From positions 1 to 28,218 of the IMG/VR virus record IMGVR_UViG_3300044511_000147: a stretch of 28,218 nucleotides of DNA, one strand, 5' to 3'. Below the pieces are notes generated by a model. That model did no database searches. It had not been told where the DNA came from and saw only the letters and a program-made list of their open reading frames with translations. Source of the DNA: a virus. This document shows positions 3,628 through 27,056 of this stretch, one piece after another (within the stretch, counting starts at the first letter, position 1; each line of letters begins with the position of its first letter). A program made the translations under genes and the position numbers.

Positions 3628-5007
3628 CTATGCGTCAATGTCCTCGTGAGGAACTGGCTGGATCGTATGCCGGAACTTCGTCTGCTTGCCGCCACGCGCG
3701 GGGCTCAAGAACCGGCTGAAACGAAGATCATGAAGGATTGGGTCCAGATCATGCAGACGCAGACAGTAGGCCAGCAATGACCCGCACACCGATCCACGGC
3801 CCGGCCCGACACCATAAACCATGTCGAAGCCGAGATGCTTTTGACAGTAATCCCGCGCCTCGTCCACCATCATCTTCTGGATGAGGAAGTAAGACGCGAA
3901 CCCCTTCTCTGTGACGAGATCGTACTCTTCCCTGATGCGTTTCACATACTTGGGTTCCTTCGGACAGTGGCGTGCGAGGAATCCCTTCTTGATCTCATCC
4001 CACAAAATAGCTTCTGCATCGGGGATGCGAGGGAGCTTGATCTCCCGGTCAAATTGCACACCTTTGGAGAACTCGGCCAACTTGACCGTGTTCGACTTGG
4101 CAATCTTGAATAACTCGTAGTCGATGGTGTCGTGGTAGTCCTTCTCCCACTTCTCATTGAGTTCCTCCTCCGACTTGAGCCACAGATTGGCGTCCTGCAA
4201 CTCGAACAAGTCGTCGGCGTCCCCGGAGTCGATCATCGCTTGGATGTCGGCGAGGGTGCGCTTGTTCTGCTGCATGAGCATGAGCCGCTGGTTGTGGCTG
4301 TGCTCTTTCTGACAGTAGTGGCAGTCTTGGGTGAGGATGAGGGGGAGGCCATACTTCGAGTGAGCTTTCAGTAAAAAAGTATCGTAAGGCTTCTGCATCT
4401 TCCAGTCGAGCATCATCAGTTCGAGGTAAAACTTATCCCCGAACATCGCCATGTACTTTTCGATCATGGCGAAACCAGCAGCATCGTCGAACTGGCTGTT
4501 GCCCATGAAGGCATTGGCGATCTCGCTGTTGCCGCAGGTGCTCGTGAAGATGATGCCTTCCTTGTACTGCTGAAGGACTTCGTGGTTGACTCGCGGCCTA
4601 CGGTAGTACCCATGAATCCACGCCCATGACGTAAGACGGACGAGGTTCGAGTAGCCTTGAAGGTTGTAGGCAATGGCGAGCAAGTGATGGGATTTGTCGA
4701 ACTTCTTCTGGGTGGCTTCGTCTCCGAGATTCTTACGAAACTCGGCAGACTCGTTGCGGTTAGCCACCTTCGGCTGCATGGGGTTGACGTACAACTCGCA
4801 GCCGAAGAGCGGAAAGAGTTTGTGCCGTTCGCATTCGGCAATCTGTTGGGGGACGGCCCCCATGACACCGTGATCGGTGATACAGAGATACTTTTGGTTG
4901 ATCTCTTTCATGCGCTCGGCGTACTCATCGACGCGAGCAAAACCGTCCAACAAAGAGAAGTCCGAGTGGCGGTGCAGATGTTCAAAACCTGTGACGGGGT
5001 GTTGCAT
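3628..5007 (-). CDS. dnaE: DNA polymerase III alpha subunit (DnaE), N-terminal part only
   Basis: 459 residues covering the PHP domain and the beginning of the palm of a C-family polymerase. PHP motifs are HLHRHSDFSLLDG near residue 10, ITDHG near 43 and LTQDCHYC near 230. The palm begins with GVGPGRGSVCGSLLAYCL near 405, matching the GPGRGS motif of DnaE, followed by LDPILHDLRFSRFLSPAR. The protein then stops at HEDIDA, the place where intact DnaE has PDxDxDF with the first catalytic aspartates. Full-length DnaE is over 1100 residues, so thumb, fingers and most catalytic palm are missing. The next gene downstream is an acetyltransferase, not the rest of dnaE. No intein-like start is visible at the end. 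A strong GGAAGGGAAGG lies before the ATG. Confidence 0.9.
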   Translation of the reverse strand: MQHPVTGFEHLHRHSDFSLLDGFARVDEYAERMKEINQKYLCITDHGVMGAVPQQIAECERHKLFPLFGCELYVNPMQPKVANRNESAEFRKNLGDEATQKKFDKSHHLLAIAYNLQGYSNLVRLTSWAWIHGYYRRPRVNHEVLQQYKEGIIFTSTCGNSEIANAFMGNSQFDDAAGFAMIEKYMAMFGDKFYLELMMLDWKMQKPYDTFLLKAHSKYGLPLILTQDCHYCQKEHSHNQRLMLMQQNKRTLADIQAMIDSGDADDLFELQDANLWLKSEEELNEKWEKDYHDTIDYELFKIAKSNTVKLAEFSKGVQFDREIKLPRIPDAEAILWDEIKKGFLARHCPKEPKYVKRIREEYDLVTEKGFASYFLIQKMMVDEARDYCQKHLGFDMVYGVGPGRGSVCGSLLAYCLRLHDLDPILHDLRFSRFLSPARGGKQTKFRHTIQPVPHEDIDA

Positions 5008-5070: not shown

Positions 5071-5745
5071 TTACGCGCCCCTTAAGGAATGGACATCTGG
5101 GTACTTGCGGGAGCCGAGGACGGCATCAGTCAATCCGTAAAATACAGCTTCCCCAGAATCCACGTACCAATCGACTTCTTTCTTAATTTTCTTGTCGAAA
5201 AAATCGTAGGCTGTCTTAACGGTCGCCGACTTCTTCTTCTTGAAGAACTCACCGTTGATCGCGCGGTTGGCGAAGATCTCCAGCATCCGCTTGCAAGCGT
5301 TGATCTGACGCTGAGCATCGTTCTTGAAAGCGAAGGGGTGCTGCTCGCCACCGTAGGCCCAGCCGTGGTGCATCATGAAGTGACAGTCAGGCATCATGAT
5401 CCGCAGGTTCGCGGACTGGAACACGATGCCGCTCATAGAAGATGCTTGTGCATAGGCAAGCATCGTAATCCGAGATCGAGCGAACTCGATTGAGTTGAAG
5501 ATCGCCATGCCGTTGTCCCAACACCCGCCAATGGAATGCAAGTGAACAAGGATGGGGCTGTGGGGCTCTAAGTCTAAGATGTGAAGATTCTTGATGAATG
5601 TCGTCGCTTGCCGGTACTCCACGCCCGGCTCGTTCGATTCGTCTTCACAGTTCGCATAATGCGAATGCAAATAGATGTCCCTCGTTGAGAGATTGACATT
5701 GTGGTCATGAACTTCTGCTAGAACCTGTTCCTTTGCCCGCTTCAT
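5071..5745 (-). CDS. ClpP-like serine protease
   Basis: 224 residues with the ClpP/crotonase fold signature: HLHSIGGCWDNGMAIFNSI, then AQASSMSGIVFQSA with likely nucleophile Ser103, IMMPDCHFMMHHG with His126, and VDWYVDSGEAVFYGLTDAVL with likely Asp192. The triad order Ser-His-Asp matches ClpP. The start at 5745 (MKRAKEQ) is preceded by GGGAGG; the frame extends 12 codons further without a comparable site. Phage ClpP-like enzymes often mature the head, but some act like host ClpP. The gene is divergent from the leader-bearing protein at 5802, 56 bases away. A run of lysines (KKKKSATVK) near residue 170 is unusual. Confidence 0.85.
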   Translation of the reverse strand: MKRAKEQVLAEVHDHNVNLSTRDIYLHSHYANCEDESNEPGVEYRQATTFIKNLHILDLEPHSPILVHLHSIGGCWDNGMAIFNSIEFARSRITMLAYAQASSMSGIVFQSANLRIMMPDCHFMMHHGWAYGGEQHPFAFKNDAQRQINACKRMLEIFANRAINGEFFKKKKSATVKTAYDFFDKKIKKEVDWYVDSGEAVFYGLTDAVLGSRKYPDVHSLRGA

Positions 5746-5789
5746 GGTGGCCTCCCTCAAAAATGGTGTGAAAACGCTCATTACTTAAG

Positions 5790-6901: not shown

Positions 6902-7135
6902 CTATTCTGTAACCCGGACCCTCACCCCAAACGGGTAGAGCCAGTGCCATGTCTGTTCATCTTCGCAAGAGTCGATACCCTTCACTAAGATCTCGCCGTC
7001 GATTGCTTCTAAGTAAGTGCCATCAGGGATGTACTTGAAGTCCCTGTATGGACACAACATCAACACCCTTCGATTTACCGGCTTCTGATATGGTTTCCAG
7101 CCACGTTCCAGAAGGGTGCTGTAGTCGAATGTCAT
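6902..7135 (-). CDS. Small hypothetical protein downstream of spoVR
   Basis: 77 residues, MTFDYSTLLERGWKPYQKP and so on, with several Tyr/Trp and a beta-like pattern (DGTYLEAIDGEILVKGID). Its ATG overlaps the spoVR stop as ATGA, so translation is coupled. The compact composition and fit between spoVR and the basic protein gene support a real gene. No family is recognised. The many aromatic residues and the Asp/Glu-rich centre (DSCEDEQTWHW) are the only notable features. Confidence 0.7.
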   Translation of the reverse strand: MTFDYSTLLERGWKPYQKPVNRRVLMLCPYRDFKYIPDGTYLEAIDGEILVKGIDSCEDEQTWHWLYPFGVRVRVTE

Positions 7136-8733
7136 TTGAGAAATTCCTTCTCGTAATCCTCACGAGTCATGATGTGTACATCCTTCTCTGGGTTAGCCCC
7201 ATCGCAGATATATAGGTACTCAAGACCGTCTCTATTACGAGTCGCCAGCACAGTTACATCTTTCCACAGTCGGAAGATCGACGTAATCGTCTCCCGAGCG
7301 TAGCTATCGAAGAGTGGCCGACCATCCCACATGTGCTGCATGAAGAACCACCCCTTGCCCAAGTGATTCGGATCGGAAAGGCGGATGTCAGGCAGACCGC
7401 CGTTCAGGTAGCGTTGCAGGAGCTTCTTCTTGATCGTCTTGAAGTTCCTGTTCACAATCTTGTACTCGCCGTTCGGGAATCTTCGGTACTCGAAGAATTT
7501 CTTCTTCTCGCAGAATTCGGGCGTGAAGAACTCAGAGATGAGCGTGAAGTCGTTGTAATACTTCACTACTTCGAATATCTTCTGATGTCCGAGGCCGAGT
7601 TTCATGTCCCAATTCTCCTTCTTCTTCATATCCTTGCAGTTCTCCCACTCCGGGCCGAACTTGCCCTTGTTCCAGCGGTCACGGATGTCGAGCAGAAGCT
7701 CGAAGCCCAGCTTGTACGGGTTCTGGCTGTACTTACCGCCCAGCACGCGCATCTTGTGTTCGGCATAGTGCCAGATGCCAGCGTCTTCAGACTTCTGGCC
7801 GAGAGCGGCGAGACCTTGTTCACAGAGGATGTAGTGGTCGGCATAAGATGCAAAACCTTCGTTGATCATCTTGGTAGCGCGTTGTGGCGAGAAGTACATT
7901 GCCTCCTCATACAGCATGGAGATGATGTCCTGCTGCCACGGCTTCAACGGAGCATTGTCCTTGAGCCAGCAGAAGATGTCTTTGACCGGCCCCTCAAACA
8001 CGTCGAGGAACTGTGCCGCCTCCTTACGCTTGATGTCTTTCGTCTGCTTGTCGATGTACTCCTTCGGGTTGACCCACTCATCCATGTAGTTGTGGGTGGA
8101 GCGGAGCCGTTCGGCGAACTCGTAGTTTCGCTCATCCTTGACGACCGCCTGCTTGATCTTCTTCTTTCGCCACGCCTTAGCTGGGTCGATGAGGGTCTGG
8201 ATGCGGAGGCAGTGGTCGATGAACTCGGTAACGACTTCTGGACCCCAACGGGCCATGTATGCCCGGATGCGGGTGCCGTGGTTCGCCAACTTGTTCATCA
8301 TGTTTTCGTCAGTTGGCTCGAAGAAGATGTTATTCTTGAAAAAGTGGTTGTGCCCGATAGCGTGGGCAATCACGTCTACGTTGTCAACTAACGTGTTCGA
8401 GTCCATGCAATAGATGTAGCACGGATTGGTGTTGATCACCATTTCGCTGATGCGATACTGGTTGAACTCGTAGCCTCGGGCCAGTTCTTCGTACTCCATA
8501 CCCCACTGCCAGTGGGGATAGCGGACGGGAAAACCTCCATACGCGGCGAGTTCCGCCATTTCGTCGTAGGTTACAAACTCAACGATGATGGGGTAGTAAT
8601 CCATCCCCATCTTGTGACATGCCTCTTCGATCTGCGGAAGAACTTCCTTGACTTCCTTGTGCATCTTAAGGCCCGGAACGGTATTGTCGCCCTGTAGAAT
8701 GGGCGAACCGCTCATCATCTTAGATCTAGCCAT
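7132..8733 (-). CDS. spoVR: SpoVR family protein
   Basis: 533 residues, close to the usual length of SpoVR/YcgB (about 470-510). Recognisable family segments are YPHWQWGMEYEEL at 72-84, YRISEMVINTNPCYIYCM at 93-110, HAIGHNHFFKNNIFF at 124-138, and INEGFASYADHYIL around residue 290. SpoVR was named from Bacillus subtilis, where loss affects the spore cortex; in E. coli ycgB is linked to the yeaGH stress genes. Its biochemical role is unknown. Here it follows yeaH and a TPR/GT9-like gene in the same direction, with GAGGA before the ATG. The conserved pairing with PrkA and YeaH strongly supports the call. Confidence 0.95.
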   Translation of the reverse strand: MARSKMMSGSPILQGDNTVPGLKMHKEVKEVLPQIEEACHKMGMDYYPIIVEFVTYDEMAELAAYGGFPVRYPHWQWGMEYEELARGYEFNQYRISEMVINTNPCYIYCMDSNTLVDNVDVIAHAIGHNHFFKNNIFFEPTDENMMNKLANHGTRIRAYMARWGPEVVTEFIDHCLRIQTLIDPAKAWRKKKIKQAVVKDERNYEFAERLRSTHNYMDEWVNPKEYIDKQTKDIKRKEAAQFLDVFEGPVKDIFCWLKDNAPLKPWQQDIISMLYEEAMYFSPQRATKMINEGFASYADHYILCEQGLAALGQKSEDAGIWHYAEHKMRVLGGKYSQNPYKLGFELLLDIRDRWNKGKFGPEWENCKDMKKKENWDMKLGLGHQKIFEVVKYYNDFTLISEFFTPEFCEKKKFFEYRRFPNGEYKIVNRNFKTIKKKLLQRYLNGGLPDIRLSDPNHLGKGWFFMQHMWDGRPLFDSYARETITSIFRLWKDVTVLATRNRDGLEYLYICDGANPEKDVHIMTREDYEKEFLK

Positions 8734-8763
8734 AGTCCTCTATTCCTTATGATACCCCACATC

Positions 8764-9762
8764 TTACACTACAGACCGTAAAGACTCAAGCCTTTGTTTG
8801 ATCTGCCTAAGAGGGATGCTCCAATCCAAGTTCTCAGGTTGACGGAACAGTTCTACGCTTGGATACCAGACCGTAGAAGTCCCCAATCCCCAGCGAACGT
8901 CCGCGACATGCGGCAGCAGGCCAAGTGTCTTTTTGCCTAACGCGCCAGCTAGATGAAGCGTCACAGTGTCAACTGAAACTACAACATCGAGGTTGGAGAT
9001 GAGTTCGGCTGTATCAACCAGATCATTCAGTGCATACTGTACCATCATGTTGTAACGCTCTTTGTCGGGAATGACCGCGTACAACTCATTGATGCCGTCT
9101 TCAAGAATGGCAAACTCTTGGATGGGTACAGATTTCTTCGCCGAGATCGGGTTATCGGCATTGCTCTTCCAAGCAAGTCCGACCCGAAAGGCAGGTTCAC
9201 TGAACATCGCTGGAAACTCGGACAATACCGGTTGAGGGGGTATCGGCGTGTCCAGCAAAGCCTGCCAGTGGGCCGGATAATAGACATCGAACTTAAGTCC
9301 GTTCATCAGAGCCGGGATGCTCACGATGTTCGTGAAGTAATCACACTTCCGGTGCATCTGAACGAAATCGTCGATGTAATCAGGAAGCCTGCCCATCAGT
9401 CGAGCGAATTCAGCGTGAAACGCATAGTAGTTCACCACAATCCGACAAGACCAGCGTTCCTTCATCTGCTTCAAGTAACGGAGGATGTTGATGGTATCCC
9501 CCATGCCTTGATCGCAGAAGACTTCAATTGACTTACCGTTAAGAGGCTCCCCTCGCCAGAATGCGCCAAACTCTGGGTCTGGCTCAGGGGGCGAACCCCC
9601 AATGATCCTTGACATCATTCGGCGGGCAAGATCATTGTCAGGGTCGATCTTGCCGACCTGACCAATGACCTCGATGGCCTTGTTGAACCTACCCGTCCAG
9701 AGGTAGTTGTTCGCCATAGCCAATGCCTGTTTGATGAAGTTTCTAGCGAGATCAGCATCCAT
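8764..9762 (-). CDS. TPR protein with GT9-like glycosyltransferase domain
   Basis: 332 residues. Residues about 5-50 form TPR-like helices (ALAMANNYLWTGRFNKAIEVIG). The rest has the layout of TPR-linked, heptosyltransferase-like (GT9/GT41-type) proteins: GKSIEVFCDQGMGDTINILRYL near 75, FRVGLAWKSNADN near 192, and DTAELISNLDVVVSVDTVTLHLAGALGKKTLGLLP near 250. The last is the nucleotide-sugar-binding half with the conserved SVDT...HLAGALGK run. It is 1 base after yeaH and 30 before spoVR, so it is part of the same transcription unit. It may modify a protein or surface glycan; which sugar is unknown. An ADP-heptose donor would fit HldE in the window, but that is speculation. Confidence 0.8.
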   Translation of the reverse strand: MDADLARNFIKQALAMANNYLWTGRFNKAIEVIGQVGKIDPDNDLARRMMSRIIGGSPPEPDPEFGAFWRGEPLNGKSIEVFCDQGMGDTINILRYLKQMKERWSCRIVVNYYAFHAEFARLMGRLPDYIDDFVQMHRKCDYFTNIVSIPALMNGLKFDVYYPAHWQALLDTPIPPQPVLSEFPAMFSEPAFRVGLAWKSNADNPISAKKSVPIQEFAILEDGINELYAVIPDKERYNMMVQYALNDLVDTAELISNLDVVVSVDTVTLHLAGALGKKTLGLLPHVADVRWGLGTSTVWYPSVELFRQPENLDWSIPLRQIKQRLESLRSVV

Positions 9763-9763
9763 A

Positions 9764-11008
9764 TCACAACTCTAGGCCATGTGCGGCGCTTGCCTCCTTA
9801 GAGGAAAGCAACTTACGGATCGCGTCAATAATCTGCTGATTGCGATCATCCTCAGTCATGTTGGGGGCATAACCCCATCCGCTACTGAAGCCATCGCTGC
9901 TGTCCGTCTTTTCTTCTGGGCCGACATAAGCCGTCTTAACGAGATCAGCCGGGAGTTCACCCTTCTTGATTGCCTCGTCAATGTGCTGCTTGACGCTATC
10001 TTCGTAGCGCCACGAGCAGACCTGAGTGATGCCAATCATGTTGGCTACCGAGGGGCCGAGCTTTTCCTTCATGATCTTGACGATACGCTCGTTGTCGCCA
10101 TCCCAATTGTCTCCGTCAGAGAAGTAGAAGATGTAGACGTTGAACTTATCTGGCGGATACCTGTTGACCAGTTGCTCTGCGATAGCATCAAAAGCCGAGG
10201 AGCATTGTGTGCCGCCGCCGTAACGGTAGCTGTAGAACTTCTCCTCATTGACTTCTTCTGCGCGGGTATCATGGATGAAGTAACAACGATCTACTCGCTT
10301 GTAGAACTTCCTGATCCAGCAATCTAGCCACCAGCACATGTCGCTCACGATGTCGCAACGATAATCATCCATCGAACCAGAACAGTCACGAGCGAAGAAG
10401 ATCACGGCGTTGGACGACGGGATCTTAATCTCACGGTACTGACGATAGCGGAAGTCTGACTTGATCGGCGTGATGAGCTTGATCGGAACCCTCGACCCCG
10501 GAATATATGCTAAGGCATCATTCTGACCAGTCAGAGCACGTCGCTTCATCGCCTCCTTCATCGTGCGGCGGATATGACGCAGCGAATTGAGGCCGACCTT
10601 CGAGATGTCGTTGTACTTGATCTTAACTTCCTCGAATGTCTCGCTCGGCTTCGGCTTCATGTGCGGGAGCTTAAGCTCCTCTTCCATGAACTTGAGCACG
10701 TCGTCGAGATCGAGGGTAATCGTGATGCCTTCGCCCGGCTGGTCTCCTGCTCCTCCACCCTTCCCCGGTGGTGGGTCACGGCCAATAACATCACCGTCCT
10801 TCCCCGGACCCCTACCTACACCCTCCCCCGTATCACCAAATACGAAGTGGGGAATGTCGATTTGAGGAATGCTAATGGAAACCTTACCACCCTTCGGTCG
10901 CTGCCGGACGATGGCACCCGATTTGATAAGCCGCTTCAGTTCACGCCTGCTGCGGCCCGAGATCACATCTCGGAATTTCTTGTGGTCTTCTTGTATTCGC
11001 TTGGGCAT
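9764..11008 (-). CDS. yeaH: YeaH/DUF444 family protein (vWA-like)
   Basis: 414 residues, near the usual YeaH length of about 430. The N-terminal region is basic (RRELKRLIKSGAIV), followed by a Gly/Pro-rich linker at about 58-93. From about 195 a von Willebrand A-like domain begins, with the metal-binding motif D208-C-S-G-S212 in FFARDCSGSMDDY, the YGGGTQCSSAFDAI segment giving the threonine, and YFSDGDNWDGDN the last acidic loop. In bacteria YeaH is the partner of the kinase PrkA/YeaG and the two are induced in starvation and stationary phase. AAGGAGG is at optimal spacing before the ATG. A 9-bp hairpin lies between the prkA stop and this start. Confidence 0.95.
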   Translation of the reverse strand: MPKRIQEDHKKFRDVISGRSRRELKRLIKSGAIVRQRPKGGKVSISIPQIDIPHFVFGDTGEGVGRGPGKDGDVIGRDPPPGKGGGAGDQPGEGITITLDLDDVLKFMEEELKLPHMKPKPSETFEEVKIKYNDISKVGLNSLRHIRRTMKEAMKRRALTGQNDALAYIPGSRVPIKLITPIKSDFRYRQYREIKIPSSNAVIFFARDCSGSMDDYRCDIVSDMCWWLDCWIRKFYKRVDRCYFIHDTRAEEVNEEKFYSYRYGGGTQCSSAFDAIAEQLVNRYPPDKFNVYIFYFSDGDNWDGDNERIVKIMKEKLGPSVANMIGITQVCSWRYEDSVKQHIDEAIKKGELPADLVKTAYVGPEEKTDSSDGFSSGWGYAPNMTEDDRNQQIIDAIRKLLSSKEASAAHGLEL

Positions 11009-11033
11009 GATACCTCCTTAAGTATAGGTAGAT

Positions 11034-11061
11034 GGTGCGGTCCCTGAAATAAGACCGCACC
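11034..11061 (-). other. Hairpin between prkA and yeaH
   Basis: A perfect 9-bp inverted repeat, GGTGCGGTC and GACCGCACC, with a 10-base loop, sits in the 68-base gap between the prkA stop and the yeaH start. On the coding (minus) strand it is not followed by a T-run, so it looks more like an mRNA processing or stability element than a terminator. It could set different amounts of PrkA and YeaH. Confidence 0.55.
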
Positions 11062-11076
11062 CCTTACCATAGCCTC

Positions 11077-13197
11077 TTAGTTCGAGGTATCGCCTCTGGC
11101 GAAGATGCTGGACACATAGTCCAGAACGTCCGTCGCCGACTGTTGGTTGTACCCGTACTGCTTGATGAGTCGGGTCTTGATGGCGTCGATCTTCTCCTGC
11201 AACTCGGGATCGAGAGCAACGGCTTCCTTTGTCAAGGAGGCCAACTTCACCGTGTCCTTCACGTCCTCGAAGATCTTGGCTTCGAGGGCTCTCTTCAACT
11301 CAGGGTTACTGTCCCAGCGGAACGTCTTGCCACGAGTGGCGAGAGTACCGATGAAGGACGACAGAGAGCGGCGGAAGTCATCGCAGCCCTGTTCGGGGAT
11401 GCTGTTCTTCTCTTCGATGGATCGCATGAGTCTCTCATCCGGGTCCATCTTTTCCTTTGTGATGGGATGGATCATCTTCTCGTCGTTGACGTAAGCGATC
11501 ACGTTGTCAATGTACTTGGCGCACAGACGTTCGATGGCCTTCTCGTCGGCCACGAGAGCCCGCTGGACCTCATTCTTGAGGATCTCATCGAGTTCCTTGA
11601 CCGCCAGTTCAGCACAGAATTCGTAGTGCTTAATGTCTTCGACGTTTGTGATCAACGAGCAGTTCGTAAGACGAGACTTCAGTTCGCTCATCACATGGAA
11701 GACGTTGACGTACTGCTTGTTTCTTGCCAAGCAGTTGCTCAGGCCGTCCTGAATGTAACGGGCCGACAGACCACCCTTCATGCCTTCATCTGGGAACTTG
11801 TCCTGAAGCTCCTTCACAGTGTCCTGTGTCCAGCCGGGGAGTTCCCGACCATCGTAGAGCTTGGCCTTGTCCCGCAGATCGAGCTTGCCTTCGCCGTCGT
11901 CATGCAGACGTGTGAGAATGGCGAAAAGGGCCGCGATCTCCAGCGTGTGTGGCATGATGTGCTGACGCACCTTGCCGACACCGTAGTTCTGGTCGTAGAC
12001 CTTGATCTCATCGCTCCAGCGAGTGAGATAGGGCACGTCCACCTTGACCGTGCGGTCGCGGAGAGCTTCCATGAACTGGTTGTTCTTGAGCTTCTCGAAT
12101 TCTGGATTGTTGGTGTGGGCGATGATGAATTCATCGACGACAACCTGTGCAAACTTCTTCGGCTTGATCTGGTGCTCTTGGGAAGCACCGAGCAAATCGT
12201 ACAAGAAGGCGTTGTCCAACTTGAGCATTTCGATGAACTCGACGATGCCCCGGTTGCCGACCTCGAATTCGCCGTCATAGTTGAAGGCGCGAGGATCAGA
12301 ATCGGACCCGAAGTGGCCGATCTTGGAGAAGTCCATGTCACCAGTGAGTTCGGTGCTGTCTTGGTTCTTCTCGTCCTTTGGCTGGAAGGTGGCGATGCCA
12401 ACCCGGTCGATCTCAGAGTGAATTCTGCGAACGATGCGGATATGGTTTTGTACCACAGCCAACCAGTCGCCGTTGTGTCGCTTGAGCAGGCCGTTCATGA
12501 ACAGCTTGCAACGTGGGTTGAGTTCGCCTTCGCTGATCAACTCATACACGCCGTCGCGGTCTTCTTCAGAAACGCTGTCGGAAAGTGTCTTGTTCAGTTC
12601 GGCGAGGAACTCCTTTCTCATACCCATTGGCATGAGCTTGATGGGGTTCTCATTCATCGGGCACATGCAATCAGTGTTGATATACAGGGCTGGACCCTTC
12701 TCATCGTCTTTGATCGGCAGGTTGACCCACTTGAATGTGTACCACGCTCCAGCCGGTGTCTTGGAGTAGCGCTCCAAGCCTCTCTTCAAGAGGCGGCAAA
12801 TCGTGGACTTGGACGAACCGACCGGGCCGTGAAGTAAGAGAACACGGCGTTCTGTGCCGTAGTGCCCGGCAGCACCGTGGATGAAATCCACAAGATTGCT
12901 GAGAGTCTCTTCCAATCCGAAGATCGGAATCTCTTGGTCGTCGAAGAAATGGTACTTTGTGTACGTCTTTCTGTAACGCTCGAATTCGCTTGTGCCCTTC
13001 GATACCACCATGTCATAGACATACTGAAATGCGTTTCTGGCAAGCAGCGGGTTGAGCTTCATCCGCTGAACATATTCGGCGAAGCTCATTTCCTCGTTCA
13101 GCGACAGGAATTCGCTTCGATCATACAGTTCGGCGTATTTGCTGAGCACGTTCTCTTCTGTGACAACGTGCTTCTTCAATACATTCTCTTTCTCCAT
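11077..13197 (-). CDS. prkA: PrkA-type serine protein kinase
   Basis: 706 residues; bacterial PrkA/YeaG are about 630-645. The P-loop G124-P-V-G-S-S-K-S-T is a PrkA-type Walker A. Further family segments are GAWYTFKWVNL, then CPMNENPIKLMP, and FIIAHTNNPEFEKLKNNQFMEALRDR followed by VPYLTRWSDEIKVY around 360-400, which is the conserved AAA+ core of PrkA. The C-terminal third corresponds to the kinase-like part. PrkA is a cytoplasmic Ser kinase linked to starvation, biofilm and sporulation responses. The extra length is partly in the middle, around residues 245-300. The gene has a sigma70-like promoter at 13235-13263 and AGAAGGGG before the ATG, with an inverted repeat that could occlude it. 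Confidence 0.95.
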   Translation of the reverse strand: MEKENVLKKHVVTEENVLSKYAELYDRSEFLSLNEEMSFAEYVQRMKLNPLLARNAFQYVYDMVVSKGTSEFERYRKTYTKYHFFDDQEIPIFGLEETLSNLVDFIHGAAGHYGTERRVLLLHGPVGSSKSTICRLLKRGLERYSKTPAGAWYTFKWVNLPIKDDEKGPALYINTDCMCPMNENPIKLMPMGMRKEFLAELNKTLSDSVSEEDRDGVYELISEGELNPRCKLFMNGLLKRHNGDWLAVVQNHIRIVRRIHSEIDRVGIATFQPKDEKNQDSTELTGDMDFSKIGHFGSDSDPRAFNYDGEFEVGNRGIVEFIEMLKLDNAFLYDLLGASQEHQIKPKKFAQVVVDEFIIAHTNNPEFEKLKNNQFMEALRDRTVKVDVPYLTRWSDEIKVYDQNYGVGKVRQHIMPHTLEIAALFAILTRLHDDGEGKLDLRDKAKLYDGRELPGWTQDTVKELQDKFPDEGMKGGLSARYIQDGLSNCLARNKQYVNVFHVMSELKSRLTNCSLITNVEDIKHYEFCAELAVKELDEILKNEVQRALVADEKAIERLCAKYIDNVIAYVNDEKMIHPITKEKMDPDERLMRSIEEKNSIPEQGCDDFRRSLSSFIGTLATRGKTFRWDSNPELKRALEAKIFEDVKDTVKLASLTKEAVALDPELQEKIDAIKTRLIKQYGYNQQSATDVLDYVSSIFARGDTSN

Positions 13198-13208
13198 TTG
13201 GAAATCCC

Positions 13209-13236
13209 CTTCTATGTTGACCGAGTGTCATAGAAG
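13209..13236 (-). promoter_or_regulatory. Inverted repeat at prkA promoter/ribosome binding site
   Basis: Perfect 8-bp arms CTTCTATG and CATAGAAG are separated by 12 bases. One arm overlaps the end of the -10 element, the other runs into the AAGGGG ribosome binding site of prkA. It could be an operator, or if the transcript started early enough, a hairpin hiding the ribosome binding site. Symmetry is seen directly; function is inferred. Confidence 0.45.
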
Positions 13237-13263
13237 TATAGCGGAGCCCCAAAATAGACGCAA
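13235..13263 (-). promoter_or_regulatory. Sigma70-type promoter for the prkA operon
   Basis: On the minus strand TTGCGT (13263-13258) and TATACT (13240-13235) are separated by exactly 17 bases, a good match to host vegetative promoters. It lies 38 bases before the prkA start and would drive prkA, yeaH, the TPR gene and spoVR. It is of a different class from the CTA(N)ATA boxes, suggesting early or host-driven expression. Confidence 0.6.
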
Positions 13264-14548: not shown

Positions 14549-15913
14549 CTAACTACCCAGCAGTTTGCTGGTACTCATACCTTCGATCATAGGGGAGCGA
14601 TAGACCTCTGGTACAATGTCGGCCCCTATGATCTTTTCTTTTGCATATTCCCCGCCCTTTACCAACACATCTGGCTTGATCGCCTTAATGATTTCGAGCG
14701 GAGTGTCCTCGTCGAACGAAACCACGAAATCGACATAACGGATCGCCGCCATCACCGCCATCCTCTGCGCCAGCGGCACCAGTGGCCGTTTCGGACCCTT
14801 GAGCCTCTTAATGCTCTCGTCTGAATTCAAGGCCACAACCAATCTATCGCCCTTGCTCTTAGCGAACTTGAGAGTTGCCATGTGACCTTCATGGAGAACG
14901 TCGAAACAGCCATTGGTGAACACCAGCTTGAAATCCCGTTGAACGAGATCGCTCGGGTTGACCAAACCATCCTCAGCAAGCTCGGCTGGGCACACTGGCC
15001 GATTCATGTAATGTTGGACATAGACTGCGCCTGCCCGGTATGCTATCTCGGCGGCTTCTGGTACGGTGAAACCGTGACCGATAGCCATAGCAAAGAAAGC
15101 CCCGAAGCAATCCCCTGCACCTACGACGCTATCCACTTCAACCATCACTTCGGGCCGGTAGCAGAAAAATTCTTCCTTCCAGACCCCAGCGACCTTCTCG
15201 CCGCTGTGGGTGATAACCACGGCCTCGCACTCCAGTTCATTCTGAAGGTGTTTGGCCTGCTCTTTCCAAGCCTTTTTGCCCGTAAGAGCCTCGGCCTCGA
15301 TGCCGTTCGGCTTAAAGATGGTGCAACCCTTCCACTTCGAGAGTGGTCCCTTCTTGGGATCAACGATGGTTTTCACATGCCGGTAGAAGTCAAGGACGTT
15401 GTGTTCCGTGCTGGAGAAGAAACCCTTGTTGTAGTCTGAGAGAATGGCAACATCCGGGGTCATCTTATGCTTAACAATAGACTCTCCGAGCGACTTGGTG
15501 AAATAGTCCACCGTGTCTGGGCTCAAGCCGCAGCCGGGGGTTTCCACGTCGCGGCGAGTAACCTGAACGTGACCATCAAGGAATCGCTTCTTGTATGGCA
15601 GCTTGGCCTTGATCTCTGAGTCGCCCCAGCGCGAGAGGTTGTGGTAGCGGAAAACCTTCTCTGCCTTCGGGTCTGGGAAACAGACGAGAGTGGGGGCGAC
15701 GTTGAAGTGTCTGAACTGGTAGGCGACATTTGCCACGCCGCCCGGTCTGCTGACCGGCTTATCGTGGGTCGATGTCATGATCGGCATCGGGAACTCTGGG
15801 CTAATCCGGTTGACCTTTACATCATAGTATTCGTCAACCATAGCGTCCCCGACGCAATGGACATTCAATCGCTTCTTTCGGTTCCGGTCAAGGAACTCCT
15901 TGATAATGCTCAT
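14549..15913 (-). CDS. hldE: Bifunctional heptose kinase/adenylyltransferase (HldE/RfaE-like)
   Basis: 454 residues, close to E. coli HldE (477). The N-terminal half is a PfkB/ribokinase-type sugar kinase: VHCVGDAMVDEYYDVKVNRISPE, RPGGVANVAYQFRHF, and the catalytic anion-hole segment VDSVVGAGDCFGAFFAMAIGHG. From about residue 330 it is a cytidylyltransferase-like domain: LVFTNGCFDVLHEGHMATL with the HxGH motif, then KGGEYAKEKIIGADIV. HldE phosphorylates heptose-7-phosphate at C1 and later adds ADP, making ADP-heptose for LPS core. Both domains look intact. A hairpin with a T-rich tail lies just before the start, so expression may be attenuated. The exact sugar may differ from heptose. Confidence 0.9.
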   Translation of the reverse strand: MSIIKEFLDRNRKKRLNVHCVGDAMVDEYYDVKVNRISPEFPMPIMTSTHDKPVSRPGGVANVAYQFRHFNVAPTLVCFPDPKAEKVFRYHNLSRWGDSEIKAKLPYKKRFLDGHVQVTRRDVETPGCGLSPDTVDYFTKSLGESIVKHKMTPDVAILSDYNKGFFSSTEHNVLDFYRHVKTIVDPKKGPLSKWKGCTIFKPNGIEAEALTGKKAWKEQAKHLQNELECEAVVITHSGEKVAGVWKEEFFCYRPEVMVEVDSVVGAGDCFGAFFAMAIGHGFTVPEAAEIAYRAGAVYVQHYMNRPVCPAELAEDGLVNPSDLVQRDFKLVFTNGCFDVLHEGHMATLKFAKSKGDRLVVALNSDESIKRLKGPKRPLVPLAQRMAVMAAIRYVDFVVSFDEDTPLEIIKAIKPDVLVKGGEYAKEKIIGADIVPEVYRSPMIEGMSTSKLLGS

Positions 15914-25122: not shown

Positions 25123-25857
25123 ATGCCACTAACATTCGAAGACGCCGGTTTCGGAGCCAAGCGCAGATGGCAATGTTTCGTCTGCGGAAAGCAGTACGAA
25201 GACTATGCAGGCTACAAGGATCACGTCGTCACCGACCACGAAGAGGGCCGCGAGTGGATCAAGTGCCCTGATTGTGAGGCCCCGGTACGCGACATGAAGA
25301 TGCACTACGCCGCCAAACATCCCAATCGCGTCTTGCCGAAGGACTGCCAAACGAGGGTGGCAGTATGGTTCGACCATAAGCGTCAGAAGGATGGCACCAA
25401 GAAGCCCACGGCCCGAAAGACAAACTTCCGCAAGGGTAGCTTCACTTCGCAGAAGTGTGGGCGCGACTTCGTGTATCGCTCCGGGTTGGAAGAAGAGTTC
25501 TTTAACTTACTGGAAGAGGACGCGGACGTAGAAAGCTGGGCTGCTGAACCATTCAAAATCCCGTACTTCTGGCACAACGAATGGCACAACTATATCCCCG
25601 ACATCCGCATCAACTTCGTGGATGGTTCAACGGAAATATGGGAAGTGAAGCCCGCTAATCAAACGGACTATGAGCAGAATAAGTGCAAATGGGCCGCTGC
25701 GAACAATTACTGCTCGAACATCGGATGGGACTTCATCGTCATGACCGAGGTTGGTCTAGGCAAGTTCAAACACAAGATCAAGAAACAGCGTGGGGAGCTT
25801 GCTGAACTTCTGGCTGAGATTGAGTCTCGCCCGGAAGAGCCTGACCGTCCTTTGTAG
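25123..25857 (+). CDS. Zinc-finger PD-(D/E)XK nuclease, T4 gp4 head-completion-like
   Basis: 244 residues. Two C2H2-like zinc fingers stand at the N-terminus: C18, C21, H34, H39, and C48, C51, H61, H66. The C-terminal half is a nuclease core: VYRSGLEEEFFNLLEEDADVESWAAEPFKIPYF with Glu at 123-125, YIPDIRI with D160, WEVKP with E174 and K176, then KWAAANNYCSNIGWDFIVMTE. This order and the 'YRS.lE...l....V..W..E...IPY' run match phage head-completion nucleases such as T4 gp4 and TnsA-like enzymes. T4 gp4 has no fingers that I know of. AAGGGAG lies before the ATG. The last 80 bases overlap the opposite-strand gene at 25778. Confidence 0.8.
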   Translation: MPLTFEDAGFGAKRRWQCFVCGKQYEDYAGYKDHVVTDHEEGREWIKCPDCEAPVRDMKMHYAAKHPNRVLPKDCQTRVAVWFDHKRQKDGTKKPTARKTNFRKGSFTSQKCGRDFVYRSGLEEEFFNLLEEDADVESWAAEPFKIPYFWHNEWHNYIPDIRINFVDGSTEIWEVKPANQTDYEQNKCKWAAANNYCSNIGWDFIVMTEVGLGKFKHKIKKQRGELAELLAEIESRPEEPDRPL

Positions 25858-26098
25858 CATCCGCGAACATGGCGACGAGTCTGGGATTCGACTTCTTCCA
25901 CTCTTCTAAATGCTTTTCAAACTTGGCGTCGAGGATTCTCTCGGCCTGCCGCTGATGCACCTTGAACTCTTCGGGTGTAATCAACCCCTTTGTGTGAAGC
26001 AGGCTCTTCAGGGCCAGATTCTCCGCAAGGAGGAAACGGATCATATCCGTCGTGAAATAGAAAGTGTTGCGTGCGAGATCGTCTAACTTAGTTTCCAT
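25778..26098 (-). CDS. Small helical hypothetical protein
   Basis: 106 residues. METKLDDLARNTFYFTTDMIRFLLAENLALKSLLHTKGLI, then FKVHQRQAERILDAKFEKHLEEWKKSNPRL form two or three long helices with heptad-like spacing, probably a coiled coil. The last 22 residues (GQALPGETQSQPEVQQAPHAVS) look disordered. The start overlaps the glpX stop by 11 bases, so it is coupled to it, and its end overlaps the plus-strand nuclease gene by 80 bases. No family is recognised. Confidence 0.65.
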   Translation of the reverse strand: METKLDDLARNTFYFTTDMIRFLLAENLALKSLLHTKGLITPEEFKVHQRQAERILDAKFEKHLEEWKKSNPRLVAMFADATKDGQALPGETQSQPEVQQAPHAVS

Positions 26099-27056
26099 GT
26101 TGTGTCGTCATTCTCCTGATAGTGCCGCTCTCTGATCGCATCGTCAGAGAATGAGTCGTGATACCATCGCTGGTGAACTCCACTCCCTTCATCAACTTAC
26201 CATCCGTGATCCCGGTGGCGCAGAACATCACGTCGCCCTTCGCCAGATCTTCAAGTCCCAGCACATCATTAGGCTCCTGCAACAACTCACAGTTCTTGTC
26301 GGCCAGTTGGCACTGGAGATCGCCACCCATGCACTTCACGGCGGCTGCGGCGATCACCCCCTCGGGCGAGCCGCCGACCCCCAAGTAGAGATCGACGCCG
26401 CTGTCTGGGAAACAGGTGGCAAGACAGGCCGTCACATCACAGTCAGAAATGAGCTTGATGCGACAGCCCAAATTTCGCAACTTGGCGACCAGCGACTCGT
26501 GCCGTGGCCGGTCCAAACAACAAACCGTGACATGACGGACCTGCTTTTCAAGCGCCGCAGCAACGAGCGCGACATTATGTTCGACGGAGGCCCTGATGTC
26601 AGGCTGGAACCGCTTGGCAACCTTCGGCCCCACAGCCAGCTTCTTCATGTAGAAGGCGCTGGTCTTGAGGAAGTGCCCCTTGCGAGCCAGAGCAATCACA
26701 CTCATGGCCTCGTAACCACCCTTAGAAGTAGGCGTGGTGCCCTCGATTGGGTCCACAGCAATACTGTATTCCGGGCAGTTCCGCTCCATCTCTGGGCGAT
26801 CCTCAGAGTAGGTGAAATGGACGCTCTCGTTCTTGCCACAGCCGAGGATCTCGCCCTCATACAAGCCGTAGGACTCATCCTTCTTGCCCTCGCCGATGGC
26901 AATCTCAGCCAAGAAATTGATTCTGTTGAGACGGTCTCTCATGGCCTCGGTCGCCGCCTTGTCAGCAGCTTCCTTGTTGCCACGACCTACCCATTCGGCG
27001 GCTGAAATGGCCCCCGCTTCTGTGACGCGGATTAGGTCAAGATGGTGGTTCTTCAT
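26088..27056 (-). CDS. glpX: Class II fructose-1,6-bisphosphatase (GlpX-like)
   Basis: 322 residues, matching the usual GlpX length of about 330. Motifs: LIRVTEAGAISAAEWVGRGNKEAADKAATEAMR, IAIGEGKKDES with the metal-binding Glu/Asp, YSIAVDPIEGTTPTSKGGYEAMSVIAL (DPxEGTT), and LYLGVGGSPEGVIAAAAVKCMGG near the active-site C-terminus. The family removes the 1-phosphate of fructose-1,6-bisphosphate; cyanobacterial members also use sedoheptulose-1,7-bisphosphate. Carriage by a phage is uncommon. Start overlaps the cupin stop (ATGA). Context with HldE, a cupin and glycosyltransferase-like genes suggests a sugar-phosphate role. Confidence 0.92.
   Translation of the reverse strand: MKNHHLDLIRVTEAGAISAAEWVGRGNKEAADKAATEAMRDRLNRINFLAEIAIGEGKKDESYGLYEGEILGCGKNESVHFTYSEDRPEMERNCPEYSIAVDPIEGTTPTSKGGYEAMSVIALARKGHFLKTSAFYMKKLAVGPKVAKRFQPDIRASVEHNVALVAAALEKQVRHVTVCCLDRPRHESLVAKLRNLGCRIKLISDCDVTACLATCFPDSGVDLYLGVGGSPEGVIAAAAVKCMGGDLQCQLADKNCELLQEPNDVLGLEDLAKGDVMFCATGITDGKLMKGVEFTSDGITTHSLTMRSESGTIRRMTTQHGN

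Follow-up and report, generated by a model that had tools for sequence, protein, structure and literature searches.

Gene organization of the PrkA-YeaH-SpoVR locus

The viral record IMGVR_UViG_3300044511_000147 from IMG/VR, analyzed over its whole length of 28,218 bp and here called the window, encodes homologs of the bacterial proteins PrkA, YeaH and SpoVR. Together with a gene encoding a TPR-GT9-like protein, the three genes were found intact, co-directional and closely packed on the minus strand (13197–7132). The product of prkA (11077–13197, minus strand) is a 706-residue AAA+ ATPase of the long PrkA form, assigned from Pfam, a PDB match and phylogeny. It is followed by yeaH (9764–11008, minus strand), encoding a 414-residue DUF444/VWA-type protein with the residues of a metal ion-dependent adhesion site (MIDAS), by the GT9-like gene (8764–9762, minus strand; 332 residues, with an N-terminal helical, TPR-like part), and by spoVR (7132–8733, minus strand; 533 residues, without an intein in the window). 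Transcription thus runs prkA, yeaH, GT9-like gene, spoVR, with full-length open reading frames in all four and stop-to-start gaps of 68, 1 and 30 nt. A 78-residue frame (13538–13302) lies between prkA and its upstream gene, no part of the set was found at 6902–7131 beyond the spoVR stop at 7132, and an Rfam search gave no match.

A sequence-only reading of this DNA had described a complete, co-directional set with intact P-loop, DxSxS and HAIGH-type motifs. Pfam profiles support PrkA, YeaH and SpoVR on the minus strand, and all three motifs were recovered (GPVGSSKST with K130 in PrkA, D208xS210xS212 in YeaH and H124AIGH128 in SpoVR).

Phage origin, distribution and history of the set

No capsid or terminase gene was found in the 28-kb window, which encodes a phage marker, a TnsA-like/head-closure protein (25123–25857, plus strand; phrog_218 head closure, E-value 7.3e-23). 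The close relative L190, with PrkA, YeaH and SpoVR 81%, 71% and 79% identical to those of the window and a GT9-like gene in the same place, is a contig of 458,813 bp with a gp23-type capsid gene (9.2e-87). The huge phage LR756511 (595,163 bp) likewise carries gp23 and shared neighbours, and its set has the same order (62%, 52% and 60% identity, respectively); it differs in having no GT9-like gene in the set, and its record is unannotated. Overall, 9 of the 25 records of relatives, many of them fragmentary, contained gp23, and the 14 control genomes had none. As L190 and LR756511 both carry gp23, the virus of the window is inferred to be a T4-like giant phage. The same two genomes bear out the earlier claim of a phage genome and contradict an origin from a bacterial chromosome.

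Scanning IMG/VR with the PrkA of the window gave 131 stretches, and 226 were found with a SpoVR alignment; the best 80 of each were used for locus comparisons. The order prkA-yeaH-spoVR was kept in the PrkA loci wherever the available DNA reaches, and prkA and yeaH were encoded upstream of spoVR on the same strand in 77 of the 80 SpoVR loci. Two of the other three loci are cut by the contig end, and in one (L232) prkA was not found in the DNA examined. These numbers do not agree with the expectation that such genes are rare in phages, which is also at odds with existing annotations in Thermus phages and in the Ralstonia jumbo phage RsoM2USA.

The nearest bacterial PrkA proteins (50–54% identity) come from Myxococcota, Chloroflexota, Bdellovibrionota, Planctomycetota and others. 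Of the 80 nearest bacterial loci, 57 share the PrkA-YeaH-SpoVR order, 55 of them with no other match and two with a GNAT or NUDIX match in addition. As the sequence-only reading had suggested, the phage proteins were compared to bacterial ones by phylogeny, and each of the three formed a viral clade without bacteria: PrkA with a support of 0.984 (52 viral and 75 bacterial tips), YeaH with 1.0 (53 and 56) and SpoVR with 1.0 (52 and 53). Viral pairwise distances were correlated between the three genes (Spearman 0.75, 0.74 and 0.60). Monophyly and correlated distances fit a single, old transfer of the whole bacterial operon to the ancestor of the phage clade, followed by joint descent.

Compared to its nearest relatives, the window showed a non-synonymous distance (dN) of 0.16–0.21 for the three genes, with synonymous sites (dS) saturated or nearly so; selection was therefore judged on closer pairs among the relatives. 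There, dN/dS was 0.006–0.15 for prkA, 0.03–0.12 for yeaH (with its maximum in a pair of LR phages not belonging to the clade) and 0.02–0.11 for spoVR, showing that the three genes are under purifying selection.

Genes for PrkA and SpoVR in phages are already known, being annotated in Thermus phages and RsoM2USA, and DUF444-type genes are also present in these phages; what is new here is the scale and history of the set in a giant-phage clade. The Thermus phages phiYS40, TMA, phiLo, MN1 and Lalka all encode PrkA and YeaH homologs, and all but phiLo a SpoVR homolog at the search sensitivity used. They differ from the window in that PrkA is only about 30% identical, the order is yeaH-spoVR-prkA in phiYS40 and MN1, and PrkA and YeaH belong to a separate lineage. 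The Thermus phages as well as the huge phages LR745206, LR756502 and LR756504 fell outside this clade in the trees of PrkA and YeaH, so that phages probably acquired genes of this kind on more than one occasion. RsoM2USA (343,806 bp) has SpoVR and PrkA annotated as ORF28 and ORF30 (PMC8504454), with best functional homologs in the gammaproteobacteria Alcanivorax and Vibrio and a PrkA of 648 residues; it probably represents another separate gain, a placement made by inference as its record was not found in the collection searched. A literature search, with most subscription papers outside its coverage, found no paper on the set of this clade, its one-time transfer, its promoter or SpoVR inteins.

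A candidate promoter upstream of prkA

A candidate sigma70-like promoter was read directly upstream of prkA (13235–13263, minus strand), comprising TTGCGT (13263–13258), a 17-nt spacer and TATACT (13240–13235), the latter 37 nt from the start codon. In non-redundant viral upstream regions compared to 200 shuffles, TATA[ACG]T occurred between −70 and −12 of prkA in 24 of 59 regions (shuffles: mean 4.7, maximum 10). The same −10 class was found upstream of yeaH in 1 of 38 (expected 2.1) and upstream of spoVR in 4 of 55 (expected 1.8, maximum 6). In the relatives L006, L007 and L010, TTGT.. is followed after 17–18 nt by TATA[CG]T upstream of prkA. A generic promoter scan placed the 13235–13263 site below its threshold and gave a window total no higher than in shuffles, so the signal comes from the comparison across relatives only.

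The −10 hexamer is enriched at prkA and not at yeaH or spoVR, which makes a single transcript likely, and no minus-strand terminator-like site was detected between the genes of the set (13 sites in the whole window against 7.2 expected). The set is thus probably one transcript from its own host-type promoter, in line with the earlier claim of a single expressed unit. In Rhizobium etli, prkA-yeaH-spoVR was confirmed as an operon by reverse transcription PCR, and its expression depends on RpoN1 and (p)ppGpp (PMC3188799). Regulation of the phage copy appears to be different. The bacterial operon (E. coli yeaGH/ycgB, R. etli, Myxococcota, Chloroflexota, Bdellovibrionota) otherwise has the same three families, order and key motifs, and the phage set is set apart from it by the sigma70-like promoter, the separate monophyletic clade and, in the sub-clade of the window, the GT9-like insert.

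Proposed function of the set and alternative explanations

Two Pfam domains cover nearly the whole of PrkA, AAA_PrkA at residues 37–434 (3.1e-75) and the C-terminal PrkA domain at residues 443–694 (1.4e-69), and solved PrkA structures (PDB 9xip, 9xiq and 9xir; 666 bits for 9xip) were matched across residues 26–701. The Walker-A lysine of the P-loop, K130, is conserved throughout (52/52 viral, 75/75 bacterial). In a 22-sequence phage alignment, N363 and R382, which we take to be sensor 1 and the arginine finger, were invariant. YeaH matched the DUF444 profile (1.7e-66) while falling under the NCBIfam equivalog cut-offs, and its MIDAS residues (D208xS210xS212...T267...D298) were invariant in 28 sequences. 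The pairing of an AAA+ protein with a VWA protein is a known design. SpoVR was matched by its Pfam family at residues 26–445 (6.1e-102), also under the NCBIfam equivalog cut-off, and sequence searches of the PDB gave no credible relative for either SpoVR or YeaH.

We propose that a giant T4-like phage ancestor acquired the bacterial prkA-yeaH-spoVR genes once and that their order has been retained since. The host-sigma70-like promoter would allow the set to be transcribed in infection without the starvation signals reported for bacteria. Judging from the motifs and from all three genes having been kept together, PrkA would most likely form an AAA+ ATPase ring with YeaH as its VWA/MIDAS adaptor, the two jointly remodelling a protein client, and SpoVR, whose invariant HxxxH...NEG motif may bind metal, would be the third partner, acting as client or effector. 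In E. coli, deletion of yeaG and deletion of yeaH result in a common phenotype (PMC4664914). In the weakest step of this explanation, the set would probably impose or buffer the growth-arrest or stress physiology of the bacterial operon during the long giant-phage cycle. That three genes were kept together through large divergence, with a promoter in front, suggests that they work as a unit and are of benefit to a lytic virus. We favor this explanation as a whole (a single operon takeover, a sigma70-like promoter and an AAA+/VWA remodelling machine with SpoVR), with some reservation. A more specific version is offered tentatively: the set may be a core host-physiology module of a large giant-phage clade, with PrkA acting as an AAA+ motor and not as a kinase, YeaH as the VWA adaptor and SpoVR as a zincin-like metalloprotein, with the active motifs marked by two intein sites, one of them shared with bacteria. 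If so, the phage set would offer a tractable route to the client of the bacterial operon, which is widespread and strongly starvation-induced and for which a kinase function, a protease function and neither have all been reported.

Among the alternatives, the one that survives best, although we consider it rather unlikely, is that SpoVR is itself the working enzyme, a zincin-like metalloprotein for which PrkA and YeaH would serve as loader or activator, by analogy with MoxR-VWA pairs and magnesium chelatase. Consistent with this, SpoVR residues N101, P104, H124, H128, N291, E292, G293 and A295 showed no variation across the 52 viral and 53 bacterial sequences, so that both the HxxxH and the NEG motif are fully conserved. 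The best structural matches of the predicted model (residues 1–425) were zinc metallopeptidases of several families, namely M32 carboxypeptidase (Z 7.9), IRAP, ACE2, anthrax LF and DPP III. These scores do not exceed Z = 7.9 and were obtained on a model with a mean predicted local distance difference test (pLDDT) score of 77, and Foldseek gave no match with E < 0.001. A profile comparison of SpoVR to M32 peptidases also found nothing, and residue 125, in the place of the catalytic Glu of HExxH, is Ala in the 52 viral and Val in the 53 bacterial sequences. We treat the reading of a metal site as a lead only.

In many relatives of the window, SpoVR contains inteins at two conserved motifs. Large spoVR insertions were present in 22 of 74 complete viral loci (not de-duplicated), with 14 near N101|T102, 16 near A295|S296 and both in eight loci; among 46 representative viral loci, eight had the first site occupied, nine the second and three both. 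Twelve translated insertions were in frame, with Cys as the first residue and HN as the last, followed by Thr or Ser. LAGLIDADG_3 and an intein splicing domain were matched in two phage insertions and one bacterial insertion, the splicing domain exceeding its cut-off in the bacterial example only. LAGLIDADG-type phage examples include L006:15162-16487, L048:12179-13399 and L042:11286-15389, among others. Inteins at site 295 were also found in six bacterial loci (L139, L146, L090, L092, L093 and L094), three of them without a LAGLIDADG motif seen by eye. Inteins tend toward conserved functional motifs, and both sites therefore hint at where the working part of SpoVR lies; the second adjoins NEGxA|S, which speaks in favor of SpoVR as the working enzyme. 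Our literature search, limited as above, found no paper pairing an intein with SpoVR.

The sequence-only reading had instead proposed a host-like stress kinase system; in this explanation, PrkA is a Ser/Thr kinase with which the phage would keep starved cells productive or reprogram host translation. Besides the family name, this explanation can draw on E. coli YeaG, for which kinase activity in vitro has been reported (as cited in PMC4664914) and whose K426A variant, K426 being the residue mutated in the kinase-dead form, fails to complement (PMC4664914). As E. coli-type reference we used the YeaG of Enterobacter phage LAU1 (L088), in which K116, R232 and K426 have the same numbering as published. 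K116 aligns with the Walker-A lysine K130 of the window. K426, by contrast, aligns with D484, an assignment that depends on the multiple alignment at that position; the column holds Asp in 49 and Ser in three of the 52 viral sequences, never Lys, and Asp or Glu in 75/75 related bacterial PrkA proteins. Retention in the giant-phage clade suggests which residues cannot change, and the kinase lysine is not among them. Furthermore, purified B. anthracis PrkA showed neither kinase nor real protease activity (PMC13001217). The kinase claim is thereby weakened while the reported YeaG activity still speaks for it, and we hold it to be improbable; the AAA+/VWA remodelling machine with SpoVR fits better.

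Several points weigh against the favored explanation as well. The failure of K426A to complement argues for a role of this region in the E. coli form. R232, which is needed in E. coli YeaG and is Arg in 75/75 bacterial PrkA sequences, corresponds to Ser (S291) in the window and varies between Arg, Gly, Ala, Ser and Asp across the viral clade; the position appears relaxed or changed in phages, and some ATPase-linked function may differ there. Deletion of prkA in R. etli gave no clear stress phenotype (PMC3188799), the trees sample only the top 80 matches from viruses and the top 80 from bacteria, and the literature search found no expression, biochemical or knockout data on phage copies.

It also appears improbable that, instead of acting on host physiology, the set is needed for virion assembly or for the folding of phage proteins in a giant particle. 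Its presence across very large phages, the suitability of AAA+ remodelling for such a task and the ClpP-like gene that often follows it would agree with this role. On the other hand, the set lies more than 300 kb from the capsid gene in the 458-kb contig of L190 (possibly less than 150 kb the other way, if the genome is circular), and its promoter resembles that of host sigma70 and not the T4 late promoter TATAAATA, which is absent from the window. Finally, bacterial DNA mis-binned as viral, or a functionless passenger, could account for the bacterial ancestry of the genes, but contamination was rejected and this explanation is exceedingly improbable given the monophyletic viral clade, the shared phage neighbours, gp23 in relatives and not in controls, and purifying selection.

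The GT9-like gene and its probable relation to HldE

The GT9-like protein gave a weak C-terminal match to Pfam Glyco_transf_9 (2e-5) and a weak match to TIGR02193, far under the cut-off. Its predicted fold was most similar to WaaC (4e-7) and TibC (1.2e-5) in Foldseek, indicating a heptosyltransferase-like GT-B fold. A C-terminal DTxxxHLAG-type nucleotide site (SVDTVTLHLAGALG) was identified, in which S263, V264, D265, T266 and L269–G273 are invariant in seven sequences. Its position between yeaH and spoVR is shared by the window and nine close contigs, whose SpoVR is at least 71% identical; L010 (PrkA 67%, SpoVR 64%) and more distant relatives do not have it there. Being confined to the nearest relatives of the window, it was rejected as an old member of the set and is a clade-specific insertion, in line with the earlier remark that it is not normally part of the set. 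With a dN of 0.45–0.53 it evolves faster than prkA, yeaH and spoVR; no close pair was available for dN/dS.

An HldE-like protein (heptose-7-phosphate kinase and adenylyltransferase; 14549–15913, minus strand) is encoded 1.4 kb upstream of prkA, with an NCBIfam HldE match (2.7e-79) under the curated cut-off. It was matched in 66 of 88 loci, making it a conserved neighbour outside the set, and in L062:1842-4009 a GT9-like gene lies directly beside hldE. HldE makes an ADP-heptose precursor in bacteria, and the HldE-like protein could possibly supply the donor for the GT9-like enzyme. The heptosyltransferase-like gene inserted in the sub-clade of the window would probably belong functionally with the neighbouring hldE, as a partner that landed in the transcription unit while remaining functionally apart from the set. 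Several GT9 matches were also seen in some giant relatives. The HldE-like enzyme, encoded in most loci of the clade with GT9-like genes nearby, would form part of a phage sugar pathway.

Other genes of the window and its relatives

The window also encodes thymidylate synthase, dihydrofolate reductase, a MazG-domain protein, a dCMP deaminase-like protein and an N-terminal piece of DnaE. The latter (3628–5007; 459 residues) comprises only the N-terminal part of the DNA polymerase III alpha subunit, with the PHP domain and the start of the polymerase domain. DnaE is likely to be split, since the PHROG 7513 family has this very length, and the position of the piece downstream of spoVR (and of clpP where present) is conserved. 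A ClpP-like protease (5071–5781; head maturation protease in PHROG) is encoded between spoVR and this piece, a location that it often has in relatives too. In Enterobacter phage LAU1 (L088:1-3308), yeaG-yeaH is located at the very start of the record and may be flanking host DNA. A GlpX-type class II fructose-bisphosphatase (26088–27056), above the NCBIfam equivalog cut-off and unusual for a phage, adjoins a cupin gene.

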